Positions 14,693-20,934 of a stretch of 20,934 nt of DNA are shown here, piece by piece. Source of the stretch: a virus; the IMG/VR virus record IMGVR_UViG_3300042691_033050, positions 1 to 20,934 of that record; one strand, given 5' to 3'. Made by a program: the position numbers and the translations under genes. The notes under the pieces were generated by a model. The model made no database searches. It was given only the letters and a program-made list of their open reading frames with translations, and had not been told where the DNA came from. Positions within the stretch are counted from its first letter, which is position 1; every line of letters starts with the position of its first letter.

Positions 14693-14753
14693 GCAAGGAT
14701 TAACCGTCGAGCTGGACGTTAAACGTAGCAACATCCCATCGCAATTCAGCACC

Positions 14754-15985: not shown

Positions 15986-16014
15986 CTAGAGTTACCCCCT
16001 GACCCCCACGGAGA
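15981..16014 (+). repeat. Intergenic repeat module, copy 1
   Basis: GATAACTA, then after four bases TACCCCCTGACCCCCACGG and AGA. It begins on the stop codon of the 15644 gene. The related module at 16887-16925 shares 18 of the 19 central bases and the same GATAACTA opening. Both are followed by hairpins with AATCTT/AAGAT stems. Confidence 0.7.
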
Positions 16015-16090
16015 CAGCCAGCACCAGAGCTATGGCTGTTAAGGGAATCTTTTATTAGCTTTACAAGTAACTTACGGTTATTAAGATTCC
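16014..16090 (+). ncRNA. Two-hairpin structured gap
   Basis: ACAGCCA (16014-16020) pairs with TGGCTGT (16033-16039) in a perfect 7-bp stem. GGAATCTT (16044-16051) pairs with AAGATTCC (16083-16090) in a perfect 8-bp stem enclosing 31 bases. Together with the repeat before and the hairpin after (16106-16128), almost the entire 165-base gap is structured. Confidence 0.55.
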
Positions 16091-16105
16091 AAGTATTGAT
16101 GGACC

Positions 16106-16128
16106 TGAGCATGTCCTTAAACTGCTCA
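16106..16128 (+). ncRNA. TTAAAC-loop leader hairpin, copy 1
   Basis: TGAGCA and TGCTCA form a 6-bp stem around the 11-base loop TGTCCTTAAAC, 22 bases before the ATG at 16151. It shares loop length and the TTAAAC ending with copies at 18962 and 20412 while the stem differs by paired changes. Confidence 0.65.
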
Positions 16129-16150
16129 CTGTTCCATCTCAATTCAGACC

Positions 16151-16294
16151 ATGACTGAACTTGACCAAAACTACAACGCTGACTTGCTTGATGCCATGGC
16201 AGACATTGCCTATGAGCAAGAGCAAGCTATGCGTGAATCCAATCAATCTGATTGGGACAACACTGACTACCCATCCATTTACCACGGTGATTAG
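16151..16294 (+). CDS. Small acidic protein, 47 aa
   Basis: MTELDQNYNADLLDAMADIA leads into a helix (YEQEQAMRESNQSDWDNT) and ends YPSIYHGD. It is acidic, soluble and without Cys. The start follows a TTAAAC-loop hairpin and a G-poor leader like other right-arm genes. Its TAG stop is two bases before the next ATG, so the two are likely co-translated. No family is recognised. Confidence 0.65.
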   Translation: MTELDQNYNADLLDAMADIAYEQEQAMRESNQSDWDNTDYPSIYHGD

Positions 16295-16296
16295 CT

Positions 16297-16803
16297 ATGA
16301 CTAAATCAACGCAACACACTCAGGACAACTCGTCAACTGTGCCGATAACAGCTGTCAATCAGCCCCAAGTCGACACGGTTGACGACATTGCCATTGTCCT
16401 GATCACACTCATCTCAATTTCAATCACACTCATCGGAGATCTCATCTCATGTCTCTTCAACCTGAACAACTGCTCATCGCAGACGCCCTCGGCTACGAAG
16501 CCTTCGACGAAGACGAAGGTAACCAGCAGTTCCAAGCAGAGGCAGACTTCCAGGACGCACCCAAAGGCGCCATCGCCTGCACTGGTAACGTCTACAGAAA
16601 CAAGCGAGGAGTCCTACGTTGCTACTGGGTTCCAACCGGTGGCAACTACTCAGCCCAGGACAAAGAAGATCTCGAAGGATGGTATGACATCCCAACCAAC
16701 GAAGAGATCCAAGACTGGACCTTTGACAGCATCTGTCTCACACCTTGTGACGACGAAGTCGAATGCGACCATCCAGACTCCTGGCTTAGGATTCTCGGCT
16801 TGA
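16297..16803 (+). CDS. Single-pass membrane protein with Ser/Thr/Lys-rich tail, overlapping another gene
   Basis: The 168-residue frame begins two bases after the previous stop. Residues 1-28 are polar; residues 29-54 are a clear membrane segment (DIAIVLITLISISITLIGDL). From residue 51 on, the frame lies entirely over the 16449 gene in a different register for 355 bases, and reads as a Ser/Thr/Pro/Lys-rich, disordered tail. Either the tail is translated (overprinting) or only the unique first part is selected. An open frame of 118 codons over another gene can occur by chance in C/A-rich sequence, so I hold this moderately. Confidence 0.5.
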   Translation: MTKSTQHTQDNSSTVPITAVNQPQVDTVDDIAIVLITLISISITLIGDLISCLFNLNNCSSQTPSATKPSTKTKVTSSSKQRQTSRTHPKAPSPALVTSTETSEESYVATGFQPVATTQPRTKKISKDGMTSQPTKRSKTGPLTASVSHLVTTKSNATIQTPGLGFSA

Positions 16804-16808
16804 TCTAA
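16449..16808 (+). CDS. Acidic Cys-containing protein ending DHPDSWLRILGLI
   Basis: The 119-residue product has an acidic N-terminus (ADALGYEAFDEDEGNQQF), then GAIACTGNVYRNKRGVLRCY, WVPTGGNYSAQDKED, GWYDIPTNEEIQDWTFDSIC and a C-terminus PCDDEVECDHPDSWLRILGL. Five Cys, four of them from RCYW onward, could bind a metal. The C-terminal phrase is one I recall from cyanobacterial and cyanophage hypothetical proteins; this is not a search result. It starts inside the 16297 frame at CTCATCTCATG, a leader like those of its neighbours. It is the better supported of the two overlapping frames. Confidence 0.78.
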   Translation: MSLQPEQLLIADALGYEAFDEDEGNQQFQAEADFQDAPKGAIACTGNVYRNKRGVLRCYWVPTGGNYSAQDKEDLEGWYDIPTNEEIQDWTFDSICLTPCDDEVECDHPDSWLRILGLI

Positions 16809-16841
16809 CCTACGACACATAACACTAACGTTATGATGACA

Positions 16842-16863
16842 TTTGCTATTCGCGAATAGCGAA
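16842..16863 (+). ncRNA. Palindromic hairpin after the 119-aa gene
   Basis: GCTATTCGCGAATAGC is a perfect 16-base palindrome; with flanks TTT and GAA it forms a 9-bp RNA stem (one U-G) around CGCG. It could be a protein-binding site or, as RNA, a processing or stability element. No T-run follows. Confidence 0.6.
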
Positions 16864-16886
16864 CAGTAAGTGCCAGGGTATTGCCA

Positions 16887-16925
16887 GATAACTACTAGCC
16901 TACCCCCAGACCCCCACGGGGAGAG
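16887..16925 (+). repeat. Intergenic repeat module, copy 2
   Basis: GATAACTA, then TACCCCCAGACCCCCACGG followed by GGAGAG. It is the second copy of the module at 15981. The complementary strand is G-rich with two G5 tracts. Confidence 0.7.
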
Positions 16926-16934
16926 TACCAGGAA

Positions 16935-16957
16935 ATCTTCTTTGATCAATAGAAGAT
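16935..16957 (+). ncRNA. ATCTTCT/AGAAGAT hairpin before the 93-aa gene
   Basis: A perfect 7-bp stem around TTGATCAAT, extendable with a one-base bulge to GAA/TTC. It is followed by 36 bases without a single G (16961-16996) up to the ATG at 16997, an unstructured leader with no Shine-Dalgarno. Confidence 0.6.
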
Positions 16958-16996
16958 ATTCTCTCTACCCACCAACATTCACTCACCAATCAACTC

Positions 16997-17278
16997 ATGA
17001 CTACTCATCACACCAACCTTAACGAATACTCCAAGCTTGCTAACATCCTCGAAGAACTGAAAGCTATCTCTCAACGAGAGAGCAAGCGTCATGAAATGGA
17101 TCAACATCTCACTTCCTCCATGCTTGCCATGTTGGATGATGAGATTATCCCCATGCTCGAAAACGAGATGGACTATGAGCCATCAGATGAAGAGCTTGGT
17201 AACAGTGGTGAACCACCAATGACAGCAGACGAGATGCACACAATTGCATGGCGTCAGCACCAAGAGCTTCATCGCTAA
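16997..17278 (+). CDS. Acidic helical protein, 93 aa
   Basis: MTTHHTNLNEYSKLANILEE is followed by a charged helix (LKAISQRESKRHEMDQHL), an acidic centre (MLDDEIIPMLENEMDYEPSD) and a C-terminal helix (MTADEMHTIAWRQHQELHR). It is soluble with no Cys. The frame is well placed after the G-free leader. No known domain is recognised; the strong acidity might fit a DNA mimic or protein-binding early protein, but nothing specific supports this. Confidence 0.7.
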   Translation: MTTHHTNLNEYSKLANILEELKAISQRESKRHEMDQHLTSSMLAMLDDEIIPMLENEMDYEPSDEELGNSGEPPMTADEMHTIAWRQHQELHR

Positions 17279-17315
17279 CAGCCCTACCGCAAGGTTAAGG
17301 AAACATTAAGACCAT

Positions 17316-17355
17316 TGGTTACGGCTTGACTGCCCTGGTAGACTTGCCGTGACCA
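17316..17355 (+). ncRNA. Hairpin before the 67-aa gene
   Basis: TGGTTACGGC and GCCGTGACCA form a 10-bp stem with one U-G around a 20-base loop. The leader after it (CACTCAACTCACCTACG...) is again G-poor and ends in CAACTCAAATG without Shine-Dalgarno. Confidence 0.6.
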
Positions 17356-17383
17356 CACTCAACTCACCTACGTACCAACTCAA

Positions 17384-17587
17384 ATGTCTGACAGCCTTCG
17401 CATCCCAGACTCGATTGATCTTCAACGACTAGAAGCTATGCAGCTTGTAGCCAAGATGAAAGAATCAGCTGACAAACATGGTATTGGTTTCATCGGGGGC
17501 TTTGTTGCACCCGATGGACAAAAGTTTATTATGTCCAACATGGACGACGATGATTCACAAGCACTCTTACCTGACAATCTAAAATGA
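17384..17587 (+). CDS. Small conserved-looking protein with GFIGGFVAPDGQKFIMSNMD motif
   Basis: This encodes 67 residues: IPDSIDLQRLEAMQLVAKMK (helix), then HGIGFIGGFVAPDGQKFIMS (two strands) and an acidic end NMDDDDSQALLPDNLK. The helix plus G-F-(I/V)-GGFV-x-PDG-x-KF-x-x-SNMD pattern recalls a short hypothetical family I associate with cyanophages. Its stop overlaps the start of a 26-aa membrane peptide as ATGA. No function is known to me. Confidence 0.75.
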   Translation: MSDSLRIPDSIDLQRLEAMQLVAKMKESADKHGIGFIGGFVAPDGQKFIMSNMDDDDSQALLPDNLK

Positions 17588-17664
17588 CAACAATTGAATT
17601 CTTGATTTTATTTGTAATTTTTGTTTGCTTTTCCTTGTTACTTAATTACTTGATTTATGGATGA
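17584..17664 (+). CDS. 26-aa membrane peptide
   Basis: MTTIEFLILFVIFVCFSLLL followed by NYLIYG is nearly all hydrophobic and would span the membrane once. Its ATG overlaps the stop of the 67-aa gene (ATGA) and its end overlaps the next start by eight bases, so it is coupled on both sides. The sequence is markedly A/T-rich compared with its neighbours because of its Leu/Phe/Ile content. Such peptides are easily missed; without expression data it stays provisional. Confidence 0.5.
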   Translation: MTTIEFLILFVIFVCFSLLLNYLIYG

Positions 17665-17953
17665 CCGCAATGCAATGATCAATGAGATCATTGACAAATT
17701 CAACTTTGAGAAAGTATTAATTGCCATGACAGCACTTGACTGGCAATGGCAAACAACAGCAGGCGATGGGTATTCATTGCCAACATTGCAAAGACTTAAG
17801 GCAATGGCACGTCATTTATTAAATGAATCCATCAAGGAAACAGTTGTTGGATCTGGTGGATTCGAAGCCAAGTATCATTCCAAAGACAATAGTGATTCGG
17901 AGTATTTCGAATTGAAATTCATTCTTTGCCACGAGGATTCTTACGATGACTGA
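17657..17953 (+). CDS. Hypothetical protein, FNFEKV...GTPTLQRLK type, 98 aa
   Basis: The order is: helix (AMINEIIDKFNFEKVLIAM), ALDWQWQ, a Gly-rich turn with SLPTLQRLKAMARHLLNE, then GSGGFEAKYHSKD and strand EYFELKFILCHED. The pattern, NF-x-KV-x-x-x-M-x-x-L-x-W-x-W then PT-x-x-x-LK-x-x-A, then G-GGFEA, matches small hypothetical proteins I associate with many phages. The function is unknown. It is overlapped at its end by the next gene (ATGACTGA). Confidence 0.78.
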   Translation: MDDRNAMINEIIDKFNFEKVLIAMTALDWQWQTTAGDGYSLPTLQRLKAMARHLLNESIKETVVGSGGFEAKYHSKDNSDSEYFELKFILCHEDSYDD

Positions 17954-18278
17954 ACATCCGATCACCCCACCGCCGGAGCTGGTGGAGAAGTGGGGCAACG
18001 CTGCCCCTGCTTTCCAATCCTACGGACAGTCCATTGCTAACCAAGCCGCCCGCTGGGGCGCCGACCAGGAACTAGAAGCATGCTGCAGATTATTTGAATC
18101 TAATTCAGTGTGCGGCACCAAGTTCCAGCGTCGTTCTTCTGTGCGTGATCTACGCAACAAACGTAGACCAGAACCTAAGAAGATCTCTATGACGCTATCA
18201 ATTACTGCTACTGAAGCTGAGCTTCAGGAATTCATTCGCCAAATTAAAGATGACCGAAAAGTCTCCATTGAATTTTGA
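17946..18278 (+). CDS. TPPPELV-WGADQELEAC protein, 110 aa
   Basis: The N-terminus has ITPPPELVEKWGNAAPAFQS and then IANQAARWGADQELEACCRL. The TPPPELV-x-x-W opening and the A-x-WGADQELEACC helix are hallmarks I associate with small proteins of picocyanobacteria and their phages, and are part of the host inference. The centre is basic (RRSSVRDLRNKRRPEPKK) and the C-terminus holds ATEAELQEFIRQIKDD. No biochemical role is known to me. The end overlaps the next gene by 29 bases. Confidence 0.78.
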   Translation: MTEHPITPPPELVEKWGNAAPAFQSYGQSIANQAARWGADQELEACCRLFESNSVCGTKFQRRSSVRDLRNKRRPEPKKISMTLSITATEAELQEFIRQIKDDRKVSIEF

Positions 18279-18447
18279 CAAGACGATTGCTGGATTCAAT
18301 CTAACTGAACATGGAATCAAATCGTTCACTAAATCAATTCAACTTGGACCATTCCAGGTAACACTTAACGCCAAACAGTCTGGTGTACGTGGATCTATCT
18401 CATTGCCTGGTACAGGCTTGAGTAAACGCAACATACGTTTGTTTTGA
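18250..18447 (+). CDS. DUF4236-like small protein, 65 aa
   Basis: The second half, SIQLGPFQVTLNAKQSGVRG then SISLPGTGLSKRNI, follows the DUF4236 pattern: K-S-I-x-LGP-x-x-(V/L)-x-LN-x-x-x-SG-x-x-x-S-(I/V)-x-x-PGTGLS. That domain is found at the N-terminus of many bacterial proteins of unknown function, usually beginning near FRKSI; here it stands alone after a 25-residue head. The start overlaps the previous gene by 29 bases. Confidence 0.7.
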   Translation: MTEKSPLNFDKTIAGFNLTEHGIKSFTKSIQLGPFQVTLNAKQSGVRGSISLPGTGLSKRNIRLF

Positions 18448-18459
18448 TCCAGGGACCTG

Positions 18460-18479
18460 GGATGTCCTTAAACTCATCC
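18460..18479 (+). ncRNA. TTAAAC-loop leader hairpin, copy 2 (shifted stem)
   Basis: GGATG and CATCC form a 5-bp stem around TCCTTAAACT, 21 bases before the ATG at 18501. The preceding bases GGACCTGGGATGTCCTTAAA closely match copy 1 (GGACCTGAGCATGTCCTTAA), so it is the same element with a different stem register. An alternative GGAC/GTCC pairing is available in both. Confidence 0.5.
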
Positions 18480-18500
18480 ATTCCAACTCAACCTAAACTC

Positions 18501-18698
18501 ATGACAAGCACTGAGCTACACGCCATGATTGCCCGCATGGACAGCTATGGCGGATCATTCGTCTCATCAATTGCACAAGCATTGCGCTTTGCTGATCCAA
18601 AGAATCGGCAGCGTTTGCTTGATGCATTCCCTGACCTTGTCCAAAAGTATGGACCCGAAAGTCAGTTTGCCAAGGCCAAACAACTCACAAAGGTGTAA
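18501..18698 (+). CDS. GGSFV...ADPxNRQRLLDAFPD small protein, 65 aa
   Basis: MTSTELHAMIARMDSYGGSF leads into VSSIAQALRFADPKNRQRLL and DAFPDLVQKYGPESQFAK. The motif GGSFV-x-x-(I/L)-A-x-x-x-R-x-ADP-x-N-x-x-RL-x-x-AFPDL is one I know from phage hypothetical proteins. I use the ATG at 18501 rather than 18444, because the longer form would translate through the leader hairpin and gives a Pro/Ser-rich head. It is a helical, soluble protein. Confidence 0.75.
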   Translation: MTSTELHAMIARMDSYGGSFVSSIAQALRFADPKNRQRLLDAFPDLVQKYGPESQFAKAKQLTKV

Positions 18699-18701
18699 CT
18701 C

Positions 18702-18950
18702 ATGAATGTTCTAGCTATCGAAGAAACAATCATTGACGGCAACGATGTTACAGTTACAGCAGTGGTGGATGACATGCGTCTCATCTATCGGTCAACTTAC
18801 CTTGACCCTGAGGAGTACGCTCCGGCACTATGCAGAACTAGCTTCGAACTGGATGAGGGAGAACAAATCCCTCTTGACGAAGATGGCTTCTGCGATTATC
18901 TTGCTTTGCTCAACCCTAACTGGGAACTCCTTCCAATAGACAACGACTAA
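18702..18950 (+). CDS. Acidic hypothetical protein, 82 aa
   Basis: Strands (MNVLAIEETIIDGNDVTVT, AVVDDMRLIYRSTYLDPEE) precede YAPALCRTSFELDEGEQIP and the end CDYLALLNPNWELLPIDND. It is a likely all-beta acidic small protein. It begins three bases after the previous stop in the context GTAACTCATG. It is followed by 54 bases with a TTAAAC-loop hairpin. The function is unknown. Confidence 0.72.
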   Translation: MNVLAIEETIIDGNDVTVTAVVDDMRLIYRSTYLDPEEYAPALCRTSFELDEGEQIPLDEDGFCDYLALLNPNWELLPIDND

Positions 18951-18961
18951 ATCAACTGTCC

Positions 18962-18984
18962 TGGACATGACGTTAAACTGTCCA
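18962..18984 (+). ncRNA. TTAAAC-loop leader hairpin, copy 3
   Basis: TGGACA and TGTCCA form a perfect 6-bp stem around TGACGTTAAAC, 20 bases before the ATG at 19005. A second TGTCC just upstream (18957-18961) could pair with the same GGACA, giving a mutually exclusive hairpin. The loop is identical to that of copy 4. Confidence 0.7.
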
Positions 18985-19004
18985 CTCACTGTATCTACCT
19001 ACCA

Positions 19005-19274
19005 ATGAAAGCAATTCTTGCAGCAGCTGCAATCAACGTACTACTTGTATTGCCTGCTAATGCACAATGGGCAATGACCTGTACCAAAGACCCAGGCTCA
19101 TCTGTCAACCTACGCAACGGTCCATCCAAGAACAACTACGTCATCGCATCTATACCTAGTAATGCATACATCCGTGCACTTACCTGGGTATGGGGTGGTG
19201 ACGGTATGCGTTGGTACAACGTTGAACACAATGGTCTTGTTGGCTGGATGCGTAGCGACTACCTCTGCCGATGA
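19005..19274 (+). CDS. Secreted bacterial SH3-type protein
   Basis: The 89-residue product opens with a signal peptide (MKAILAAAAINVLLVLPANA) with a probable signal-peptidase cut after A20. The mature part is an SH3b-like domain: SSVNLRNGPSKNNYVIASIP, then a turn with WVWGGDGMRWYNVEHNGLVG and WMRSDYLC. The VNLRxGPSxxxxVI and GWMRSDYL signatures are typical of SH3b domains that bind peptidoglycan. C26 and C88 could form a disulfide. It overlaps the Pro-rich membrane gene (ATGA), which leads to the L,D-transpeptidase, so a role at the host cell wall is likely. Confidence 0.85.
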   Translation: MKAILAAAAINVLLVLPANAQWAMTCTKDPGSSVNLRNGPSKNNYVIASIPSNAYIRALTWVWGGDGMRWYNVEHNGLVGWMRSDYLCR

Positions 19275-19654
19275 TTAAGAAACTTATCCTTGGCACTGCA
19301 GCTATCTTTGGTTTCATCATTGCTTGTGCTGGTGTTGCAACTATGCAACTCATCATTGGTGGATTAATTCCCAATGAACAAGCTGATCCTCCTGGCAAGA
19401 TGGATCCATCGCCAGAGGAAAAGTCCAAGCAAGAATGGAAAGACAAACAAGAAGCTATTGCTAAAGAACAACCTAAACCTAAGGAGCAACCTGAGGTAAA
19501 GTCACAACCTGCACCTCCTGCTCCAGCTGCTCAACCACAGCAGCCGCAGCAGCCTGCATACGTACCACCGGCACCTGTCATAGGTCCTGGTAACTACGAT
19601 GCACCGCAGCCTTACTATCCACCTCCTGGTGCCACAGGCCCAGGGAATATGTAA
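19271..19654 (+). CDS. Membrane-anchored Pro-rich protein
   Basis: Residues 1-31 hold a membrane anchor (LILGTAAIFGFIIACAGVAT then MQLIIGGLIP). The rest is a charged helix rich in Lys/Glu (PSPEEKSKQEWKDKQEAIAK) followed by a Pro/Ala/Gln/Tyr-rich extended tail. The build resembles TonB-type or spanin-type spacers that cross the periplasm, but no TonB C-terminal domain is present. It is coupled to the SH3 gene by ATGA and lies three bases from the L,D-transpeptidase gene. Confidence 0.78.
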   Translation: MIKKLILGTAAIFGFIIACAGVATMQLIIGGLIPNEQADPPGKMDPSPEEKSKQEWKDKQEAIAKEQPKPKEQPEVKSQPAPPAPAAQPQQPQQPAYVPPAPVIGPGNYDAPQPYYPPPGATGPGNM

Positions 19655-19657
19655 CTC

Positions 19658-20398
19658 ATGAAACCTTACATGATTGGACTCATCTCAGCTGTTGTTGGTA
19701 GTGGATCAGCCATTGCTGTCCACTCTGTCAACAATCTTATTGCTCATCACGATCAACAAGAACAACACTTGCGTTCTTTGATGTATGAGCAACCATTAGA
19801 GCAAGGCCCTGGTGATATGGCACGCGCCGTACCAGAAGGTATGCTGCCATTGGATGCAACACCTACTCCAGGTGTAGCTCCAGAACCAGGCTCAGCTCGT
19901 CCATCTATTCAACTAAAGCCAGGCTTTAAACTACCCTGGCAAAACACTAGGCCATCAGCAAAACTGTTGCTCACACGCAGCAAGGAGATTGTAAAGAACA
20001 CCAAGGATCCAATCTGGACTTTACAGTTGGTATCCGATGGTCAGGTTCTTGATACTTTGCCTGCATTAAGCGGTCGTTCATTTAAACAACTGGCTGACCG
20101 CAACATTGCTGGCAACAAATCTCCACTGCCTATAGGCAACTACTCCATTGATCGTTATGGTATAGCTCGTGCACCATTCTCTGATCCAGAACTTGGCAAG
20201 GGCTATTGGGTTCCTATCACCCCACTATTTAATACCCAACGATCTGCTCTTGGTTTCCACCAAGATCCAAGCTGGGGTAGGACAAACGGAGAGTCAGGTA
20301 CCAGTGGCTGCATTGGTCTTGAATCTCCAGATGCAACAGCAAAGCTTGTTGACTGGATCAAGCATTACAACATTCAATTGTTAACAGTTGAATCGTAA
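19658..20398 (+). CDS. Membrane-anchored L,D-transpeptidase (YkuD type)
   Basis: The 246-residue product has an N-terminal membrane segment (residues 4-20, YMIGLISAVVGSGSAIA), a Pro/Ala/Gln linker (residues 60-90), and a YkuD-type domain from about residue 118 (WTLQLVSDGQVLDTLPALSG) to the end. The catalytic region reads GFHQDPSWGRTNGESGTSG followed by CIGL, with H201, S216 and C218; the Cys in (S/T)-x-GCI is the nucleophile in this family. Such enzymes cross-link or remodel peptidoglycan through 3-3 bonds, in the periplasm. It is the last gene of the SH3/Pro-rich/transpeptidase cassette. Phage use is uncommon, and the neighbours suggest wall modification during infection, not lysis. Confidence 0.87.
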   Translation: MKPYMIGLISAVVGSGSAIAVHSVNNLIAHHDQQEQHLRSLMYEQPLEQGPGDMARAVPEGMLPLDATPTPGVAPEPGSARPSIQLKPGFKLPWQNTRPSAKLLLTRSKEIVKNTKDPIWTLQLVSDGQVLDTLPALSGRSFKQLADRNIAGNKSPLPIGNYSIDRYGIARAPFSDPELGKGYWVPITPLFNTQRSALGFHQDPSWGRTNGESGTSGCIGLESPDATAKLVDWIKHYNIQLLTVES

Positions 20399-20411
20399 TG
20401 AATGCACGTCC

Positions 20412-20434
20412 TAGACATGACGTTAAACTGTCTA
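20412..20434 (+). ncRNA. TTAAAC-loop leader hairpin, copy 4
   Basis: TAGACA and TGTCTA form a 6-bp stem around TGACGTTAAAC, 28 bases before the ATG at 20463. Compared with copy 3 the second stem pair changes from G-C to A-U on both sides, with the loop unchanged. A GTC/GAC alternative pairing is possible. Confidence 0.7.
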
Positions 20435-20462: not shown

Positions 20463-20934
20463 ATGGAATTTCGTCTTCCTTCCAACCTTCAAACAGAACT
20501 CCTTGCTTACGATCCCAAGCTCAAGCAGCTGGCACGGGAGCAGAATCCTAAAGCTTCTAAAGCTAAGCCTAAGTTTCCACTTGGTGCTGTATTTGATTTG
20601 ATTCCTGCTGATGTCATTAGACCAGAAGGATTAGAAGATGCAGTAACCAGTATCAACTCTAGGGGTGTGGAGCAACGTCACCATCGGTTTACCAAGGTGG
20701 TAGATGTTGCTACACCTACAGCACGCACCATTACGCATACCATCATCTATCACTACGAGAAGGTGTGGTATGCAGCATGGTTACCTCCCAAGGGACAAGA
20801 GAATGACTACGTGTATGGCTATGCATATGCATACAAGAATCTAGATTCTGTACGTAAGTCCATACCTCATACTCTTATTGATAACAACAGTAAGCGTACC
20901 GTTGAATACGTTAAGTACGGACGCAGTGAATTCT
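20463..20934 (+). CDS. Hypothetical protein, N-terminal 157 residues (runs off right edge)
   Basis: The frame opens at ATG in the context ACTCATCATG and is open to the window end. It starts MEFRLPSNLQTELLAYDPKL and holds a Lys-rich linker (SKAKPKFPLGAVFDLIPADV), a soluble region, then IIYHYEKVWYAAWLPPKGQ followed by DYVYGYAYAYKNLDSV. The phrase (W/Y)AAWLPP...DYV-YGYA(Y/F)A-(Y/F)KN is one I recall from hypothetical proteins of cyanophages and other phages. No function is known to me. The 20412 hairpin lies in its leader. Confidence 0.75.
   Translation, partial: MEFRLPSNLQTELLAYDPKLKQLAREQNPKASKAKPKFPLGAVFDLIPADVIRPEGLEDAVTSINSRGVEQRHHRFTKVVDVATPTARTITHTIIYHYEKVWYAAWLPPKGQENDYVYGYAYAYKNLDSVRKSIPHTLIDNNSKRTVEYVKYGRSEF

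Follow-up and report, generated by a model that had tools for sequence, protein, structure and literature searches.

The window analysed here is the whole of a 20.9-kb virus record (IMGVR_UViG_3300042691_033050, positions 1 to 20,934), kin of Synechococcus phage S-EIV1, to which its terminase region is 75% identical. Its right arm carries copies of an element that is almost certainly, judging from sequence comparison, a 28-nucleotide (nt) cis-acting RNA pseudoknot of the H type, with a conserved fold and unpaired core, found almost only in phages. The consensus is 5'-[S1 NNNC]-C-[S2]-U-[S1' GNNN]-NUAAAC-[S2']-3', in which helix S1 has 4 base pairs (bp), helix S2 has 6 bp, and the loops L1, L2 and L3 consist of one C, one U and NUAAAC, respectively. 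A sequence-only reading of the same DNA had described, at 16106-16128, 18962-18984 and 20412-20434, a 6-bp hairpin closing an 11-base loop that ends in TTAAAC. The sequences, coordinates and pairings are as claimed, and the stems correspond to helix S2, but what looked like a single loop holds the 3' strand of S1 (GTCC or GACG), a second helix that also covaries, followed by the true third loop, NUAAAC. The fold is, thus, a pseudoknot, beginning 5 nt 5' of the stem noted earlier (at 16101, 18957 and 20407), and the hairpin model is superseded, as S1 covaries as strongly as S2. Few natural RNA folds whose core is strongly conserved are as small, and the element constitutes a portable 28-nt part.

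Covariation of the two helices

Independent evidence for the fold comes from scans of viral contigs in which one helix was left free. With S1 and the loops fixed (CGTCCN6TGACGTTAAAC), at least five of the six S2 pairs were in register at 153 of 169 distinct sites among the matches listed, whereas almost no site paired when the partner was slid by 1-3 bases; the compensatory stem changes reported from the window are genuine. In the converse scan, with S1 free (GACATN4TTAAACTGTC), four Watson-Crick S1 pairs were in register at 60 of 102 sites among the matches listed, with at most two sites having a full S1 at any slide. These pairs belonged to a dozen unrelated sets, including CGTC/GACG, AGAC/GTCT, CCAC/GTGG, CTTC/GAAG, AATC/GATT and AGAG/CTCT, and a further scan found a full S1 at 93 of 110 sites among the matches listed, with 28 pair types. 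Selection by conserved letters alone (CY...YA...TTAAACTR) yielded 254 sites, 252 of which had at least three of the four S1 pairs, as against a single site in a reversed-sequence control on the same loci. L1 was C in 247 of 248 sites, and L3 emerged as N(U/A)AAAC when left unselected.

An alignment of 96 sequences gave the same picture: 93.9% of cells pair (25-40% when slid), both partners vary in nine of the ten pairs, and covariation scores 0.634, compared with 0.227 after shuffling. As this alignment was our own pick from the scanned sites, the free-helix scans constitute the cleaner evidence. Two covarying helices in pseudoknot topology place the element in the H-type class, and the strong covariation of both in homologous gaps, together with intergenic, strand-specific placement, bears out the proposal of a conserved structured RNA ahead of genes. 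A DNA operator or promoter is ruled out by the covariation, the strand bias and the intergenic placement.

Copies in the window

Three canonical copies, one probable degenerate copy and one unsupported match were located:

16101-16128, + strand: pseudoknot copy 1, GGAC-C-TGAGCA-T-GTCC-TTAAAC-TGCTCA; S1 16101-16104/16113-16116 (GGAC/GTCC), L1 C16105, S2 16106-16111/16123-16128 (TGAGCA/TGCTCA), L2 T16112, L3 TTAAAC 16117-16122
18957-18984, + strand: pseudoknot copy 2, TGTC-C-TGGACA-T-GACG-TTAAAC-TGTCCA; S1 18957-18960/18969-18972 (TGTC/GACG, one U-G pair), L1 C18961, S2 18962-18967/18979-18984 (TGGACA/TGTCCA), L2 T18968, L3 18973-18978
20407-20434, + strand: pseudoknot copy 3, CGTC-C-TAGACA-T-GACG-TTAAAC-TGTCTA; S1 20407-20410/20419-20422 (CGTC/GACG), L1 C20411, S2 20412-20417/20429-20434 (TAGACA/TGTCTA), L2 T20418, L3 20423-20428
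18453-18480, + strand: probable degenerate copy; S1 GGAC/GTCC intact, S2 shortened or bulged; E value 0.05-0.07
14705-14730, + strand: related word, CGTC-GAGCTG-GACG-TTAAAC, with no S2 partner; E value 1.7-2.4

Covariance models returned exactly copies 1-3, at E values of 8e-9 to 5e-10 (S2 model) and 1e-8 to 3e-8 (S1 model; copy 1, 8e-9 and 1.5e-8, respectively), but these copies were part of the training alignment, so that the independent evidence is that of the free-helix tests. Nothing else convincing was returned from the 20,934 bases, on both strands. The three TTAAACTG octamers are not significant by themselves (7 of 100 shuffles reach three), and the significance of the copies lies, therefore, in the two-helix architecture rather than in the octamer count.

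Copy 2 lies 6 nt past the stop codon of the open reading frame (ORF) at 18702-18950 and 20 nt ahead of the ATG at 19005, and copy 3 lies 8 nt past the stop codon of 19658-20398 and 28 nt ahead of the ATG at 20463. The fourth copy of the sequence-only reading, at 18460, is probably a true one, because its placement is canonical (5 nt past the stop codon of 18250-18447, 20 nt ahead of the ATG at 18501); its S1 is intact, and it is S2 that has degenerated. The related GACGTTAAAC word at 14715 is not supported as a copy, the model match there being indistinguishable from chance.

Distribution and novelty

The sequence-only reading had placed the element before right-arm genes of one genome; it in fact spans many phages and also precedes tRNAs. 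Carriers, cyanophages and actinophages among them, include Nostoc phage NMeng1, Microcystis phage Mwe-JY13, Synechococcus phage S-H35, Moorella phage MTATph1, Lactobacillus phages phiEF-1.1, phig1e and Lj771, many Staphylococcus phages, thermophilic phage D6E, Mycobacterium phage Labelle, Arthrobacter phage Molivia (with an L3 of 9 nt), Cellulosimicrobium phage DS1, Paracoccus phage ParMal1, the roseophages SIO1, ICBM2 and P12053L, the crAss-like phage cr7_1, a 4.7-kb microvirus and a Macrococcoides plasmid. Near-canonical copies that have lost one to two pairs were found in Staphylococcus phages, ParMal1 and the Chaseviridae coliphages phiEcoM-GJ1 and flopper. A match in a Rhizobium phage gave no knot under a fixed-length descriptor. 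In cr7_1, a second, degenerate-looking copy (GAGCTTAGCATCTCCGTAAACTGCTA, about 1450-1495) directly precedes the canonical one, and tandem copies may, therefore, exist. A search of 85,000 species genomes (257 Gb) with one specific pattern returned six matches, at least two of them ahead of an integrase gene, implying that this is essentially a phage element; E. coli genomes gave no convincing match to one 33-nt consensus.

The element was called a candidate for an undescribed RNA, and it still is: no family in Rfam 15 matched the element, whether in the window, in the named phages or in the other loci scanned (E limits of 0.5 to 10), which argues against a known RNA family, and no prior description was found in the collection of open-access papers searched, which omits most subscription papers and preprints. 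Unrelated phages, some with laboratory hosts, nevertheless carry as many as about ten copies per genome. The STAXI motif (RF01728) resembles it in being a bacterial pseudoknot RNA near genes for single-stranded DNA-binding protein (SSB), integrase and other DNA-handling proteins, but in it two to three knots with UUCG loops stand in tandem across 153 positions, whereas the present element occurs as single dispersed 28-nt units; no STAXI match was found in the loci scanned. A separate STAXI search of control genomes matched nowhere and carries no information.

Genomic placement

Placement was analysed for 457 sites in 301 loci. The pseudoknot is located, as judged from its flanking sequences, in transcribed junctions and leaders: 409 of the 457 sites lie outside ORFs, as against 31% of random positions, and the downstream ORF is in the sense orientation in 351 cases and antisense in 25. 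S1 most often lies 5 nt past the upstream stop codon (the mode, in 29 of 184 upstream protein clusters) and comes closer than 4 nt in one cluster only; between S2' and the start codon, the commonest distances are near 19-22 nt. In S-EIV1, six copies are clear and a seventh is weaker, and all lie on the early-gene strand; according to the independent GenBank annotation, the clear copies lie about 5-11 nt past the stop codon wherever a gene abuts and about 20-28 nt ahead of the start codon, and one precedes the gene for SSB. Records with several copies have up to about ten, dispersed and all on one strand.

The neighbours of the pseudoknot vary. Nine copies lie 2-10 nt ahead of a tRNA, where the random rate predicts well under one; at one locus, a dense phage tRNA array containing a manA RNA (RF01745), the pseudoknot lies 4 nt ahead of tRNA-Gly. 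The microvirus copy is 3' of a sigma70-like promoter and 5' of a Shine-Dalgarno (SD) sequence, and three marine-type loci have a TATAAT 7 nt ahead of the pseudoknot. A further group, downstream of what we take from its C-terminal sequence only to be an hsp20-like gene, has a TATAAT, hairpins and then the pseudoknot before the SD. In this marine group, the TATAAT lies at the end of the hsp20-like gene, and the strong hairpins are varied, making for a highly structured 5' leader. Distances from -10 boxes show no single peak, so that the pseudoknot is not always at +1. What promoter-, SD- and tRNA-proximal copies have in common is a 5'-leader position, not one gene function.

The proteins encoded downstream include SSB, GP88, PcfJ-like proteins, scaffold, capsid F, integrase, ligase, helicase and ferritin; these genes are diverse, and many of their products are required in large amounts (SSB, scaffold, microvirus capsid F, ligase). 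The head scaffold gene is preceded by the pseudoknot in Staphylococcus, Lactobacillus and D6E phages. A second small hairpin, of the CGTGG..CG..CCACG type, lies between pseudoknot and SD in scaffold-gene leaders of Staphylococcus, Lactobacillus and another phage. Relatives fetched via the L,D-transpeptidase gene had no copy, so that even in the vicinity of related genes the element is sometimes absent. Assignment of the pseudoknot to its upstream or downstream gene by partner swapping gave ambiguous results. A recoding knot (frameshift or readthrough) was rejected, as there is no frame preference (starts at 19, 20, 21 and 22 nt are all common with 5-nt stop spacing), as was an intrinsic terminator, in view of the lack of a consistent U-run after S2'.

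Possible functions

What the element does, including the effect on translation or processing suggested by the sequence-only reading, we infer from its fold, strand, place and spread. The reading that we favour, tentatively and at something short of an even chance, is that of a compact roadblock: the pseudoknot would set the 5' boundary of the downstream mRNA segment and protect it. The single-stranded linker of about 5 nt after the upstream stop codon would be the point of transcript cleavage, or the point reached by a decaying end; lying too near this 5' end to be engaged, the knot would block 5'-end-dependent or 5'-to-3' decay, and the downstream message or pre-tRNA would persist, in an amount that could differ from that of its upstream neighbour. 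Ribosomes terminating upstream and initiating downstream would just fit on either side of the knot, which would stay folded. The 4-5-nt limit after the stop codon and the gap before the start codon imply that the knot must stay folded between ribosomes and would, thus, work in translated mRNA. Copies adjacent to tRNAs argue against a purely translational role, and promoter-proximal copies argue against a pure 3'-end role.

Such a roadblock would fit most contexts, with precedents in T4 gene 32 and in intergenic exonuclease-resistant RNAs (xrRNAs) of plant viruses. The gene 32 mRNA is the most stable T4 message, with an RNase E cut at -71, 4 nt ahead of a pseudoknot at -67 (PMC3014915). The leaders of gene 32 in T4, T2 and RB69 likewise contain an H-type knot of similar size (4-5 bp in S1, a 1-nt L1 and 7 bp in S2) before an SSB gene, followed by unstructured leader, but their conserved letters are different, and T4 has one copy at one gene, whereas the present element serves many genes, hosts and phage types. 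Homology to T4 gene 32 was rejected, models R1 and R2 giving no match at the T4 leader. The polerovirus pseudoknots are intergenic, lie 5-20 nt before a start codon and halt Xrn1 without protein (PMC6299227). Plant-virus xrRNA_D (dianthovirus/polerovirus) shares with the phage element an intergenic viral pseudoknot with conserved loops and covarying stems (PMC6299227), but is about 43-57 nt long, with another core and a separate P2 stem, and its target, Xrn1, is absent from bacteria.

Several observations weigh against the roadblock. The spacing before the start codon is likewise limited, to 19-22 nt, a constraint that follows more directly from translation models, and in some families it is the upstream gene, not the downstream one, that the knot stays with. 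The E. coli Chaseviridae phages conserve a near-canonical copy (three of four S1 pairs, six of six S2 pairs) and E. coli is not known to possess the 5'-to-3' exonuclease RNase J, so that a pure RNase J block is not the whole story. Known flavivirus xrRNAs have a ring, which a simple H-type topology lacks. It is possible, although we doubt it, that the element is the first general class of exonuclease-resistant RNA of bacteria, a self-sufficient 28-nt knot in phages of several bacterial phyla, with double- and single-stranded DNA genomes, that stands at gene junctions and partitions polycistronic mRNA by stability. If mRNA 5' ends are indeed protected, viral xrRNAs would have a bacterial counterpart in this element, and unequal expression of adjacent phage genes, such as those for portal and scaffold, would become easier to explain.

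The constrained start distance is what a translation element would predict, with the knot docking the 30S subunit (platform, ribosomal protein S1) and aiding initiation on leaders with a weak SD or none: the knot ends about 20-22 nt before the start across gene families, at the back edge of an initiating ribosome, and cyanophage leaders are G-poor and lack SD motifs. Protein S1 and 30S bind H-type pseudoknots in the 5' leaders of tisB and rpsO and in SELEX (systematic evolution of ligands by exponential enrichment), and these affect translation, although they have diverse topologies and no common sequence core (PMC7708055). If true, docking would explain initiation without an SD in cyanophages. 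We nevertheless consider it somewhat unlikely, as copies 2-10 nt ahead of tRNAs have no start codon to serve, the knot also stands ahead of strong SDs, and its tight unpaired core exceeds what protein S1 is known to require. The knot is also present in phages of hosts such as the Bacillota, whose S1 is divergent. The sharper constraint is on the other flank, the stop codon being the most sharply placed neighbour, as expected if the knot blocked 3'-to-5' exonucleases and protected the 3' end of the upstream gene, as repetitive extragenic palindromic (REP) elements do. RNase P cleavage of stop-knot-tRNA junctions would leave the knot at a 3' end, and some upstream genes retain it with many different downstream genes. 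Such protection is improbable all the same: in D6E and phiEF-1.1, a terminator-like hairpin separates the knot from the gene upstream, the copies in the microvirus and the hsp20-linked group come after a promoter, and several downstream families retain the knot with up to 14 different upstream families.

The knot might instead be a binding site, at which a phage or host RNA-binding protein (for example, a phage SSB, as with gp32 in T4) represses or coordinates a regulon. S-EIV1 and its relatives carry the knot before the annotated SSB gene, with unstructured leader after it, as in T4 gene 32, and there are several copies per genome ahead of different genes. This seems quite unlikely, as a 4.7-kb microvirus for which no SSB is known also has the knot, and as unrelated phages carry it before genes for scaffold, capsid, integrase and ferritin; one core conserved across several host phyla ill suits a phage-specific protein, and an SSB regulon as a general function was rejected, the downstream genes being too diverse. 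A highly conserved core with freely varying stems would suit a small ribozyme or ligand-sensing RNA, and a Pistol ribozyme (RF02679, itself a phage-associated pseudoknot) occurs in the same intergenic gap of phage DS1 (1098-1167 of the locus, 66 bits), about 340 nt upstream of the pseudoknot. The element itself, however, gives no Pistol model match and has no P3 stem or conserved cleavage site; the flanks in which cleavage would fall are not conserved, there is no common metabolic theme downstream, and no alternative terminator or SD-sequestering partner was seen, making either function very improbable.

Neighbouring genes in the window

The ORFs that follow the copies in the window are:

16151-16294, + strand: ORF after copy 1, 47 amino acids; homologues in related cyanophages likewise preceded by the pseudoknot
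18501-18698, + strand: ORF after the degenerate copy, 65 amino acids, weakly PHROG 15317; homologues likewise preceded by the pseudoknot
19005-19274, + strand: ORF after copy 2, 89-amino-acid SH3_3-domain protein
20463-20934, + strand: ORF after copy 3, running off the window; homologous to a family whose members have about 575 amino acids and a PcfJ-like domain

The pseudoknot precedes members of the last of these families in 35 related loci. Between 19005 and 20398, the gene for the SH3_3-domain protein is followed by one for a proline-rich protein of membrane type and one for a YkuD L,D-transpeptidase-like protein, a possible cell-wall module in a cyanophage. The right arm also contains a 25-nt direct repeat, TACCCCC(T/A)GACCCCCACGG(A/G)GA(C/G)AG, the two units of which (15993-16017 and 16901-16925) are 88% identical and both lie in intergenic gaps.

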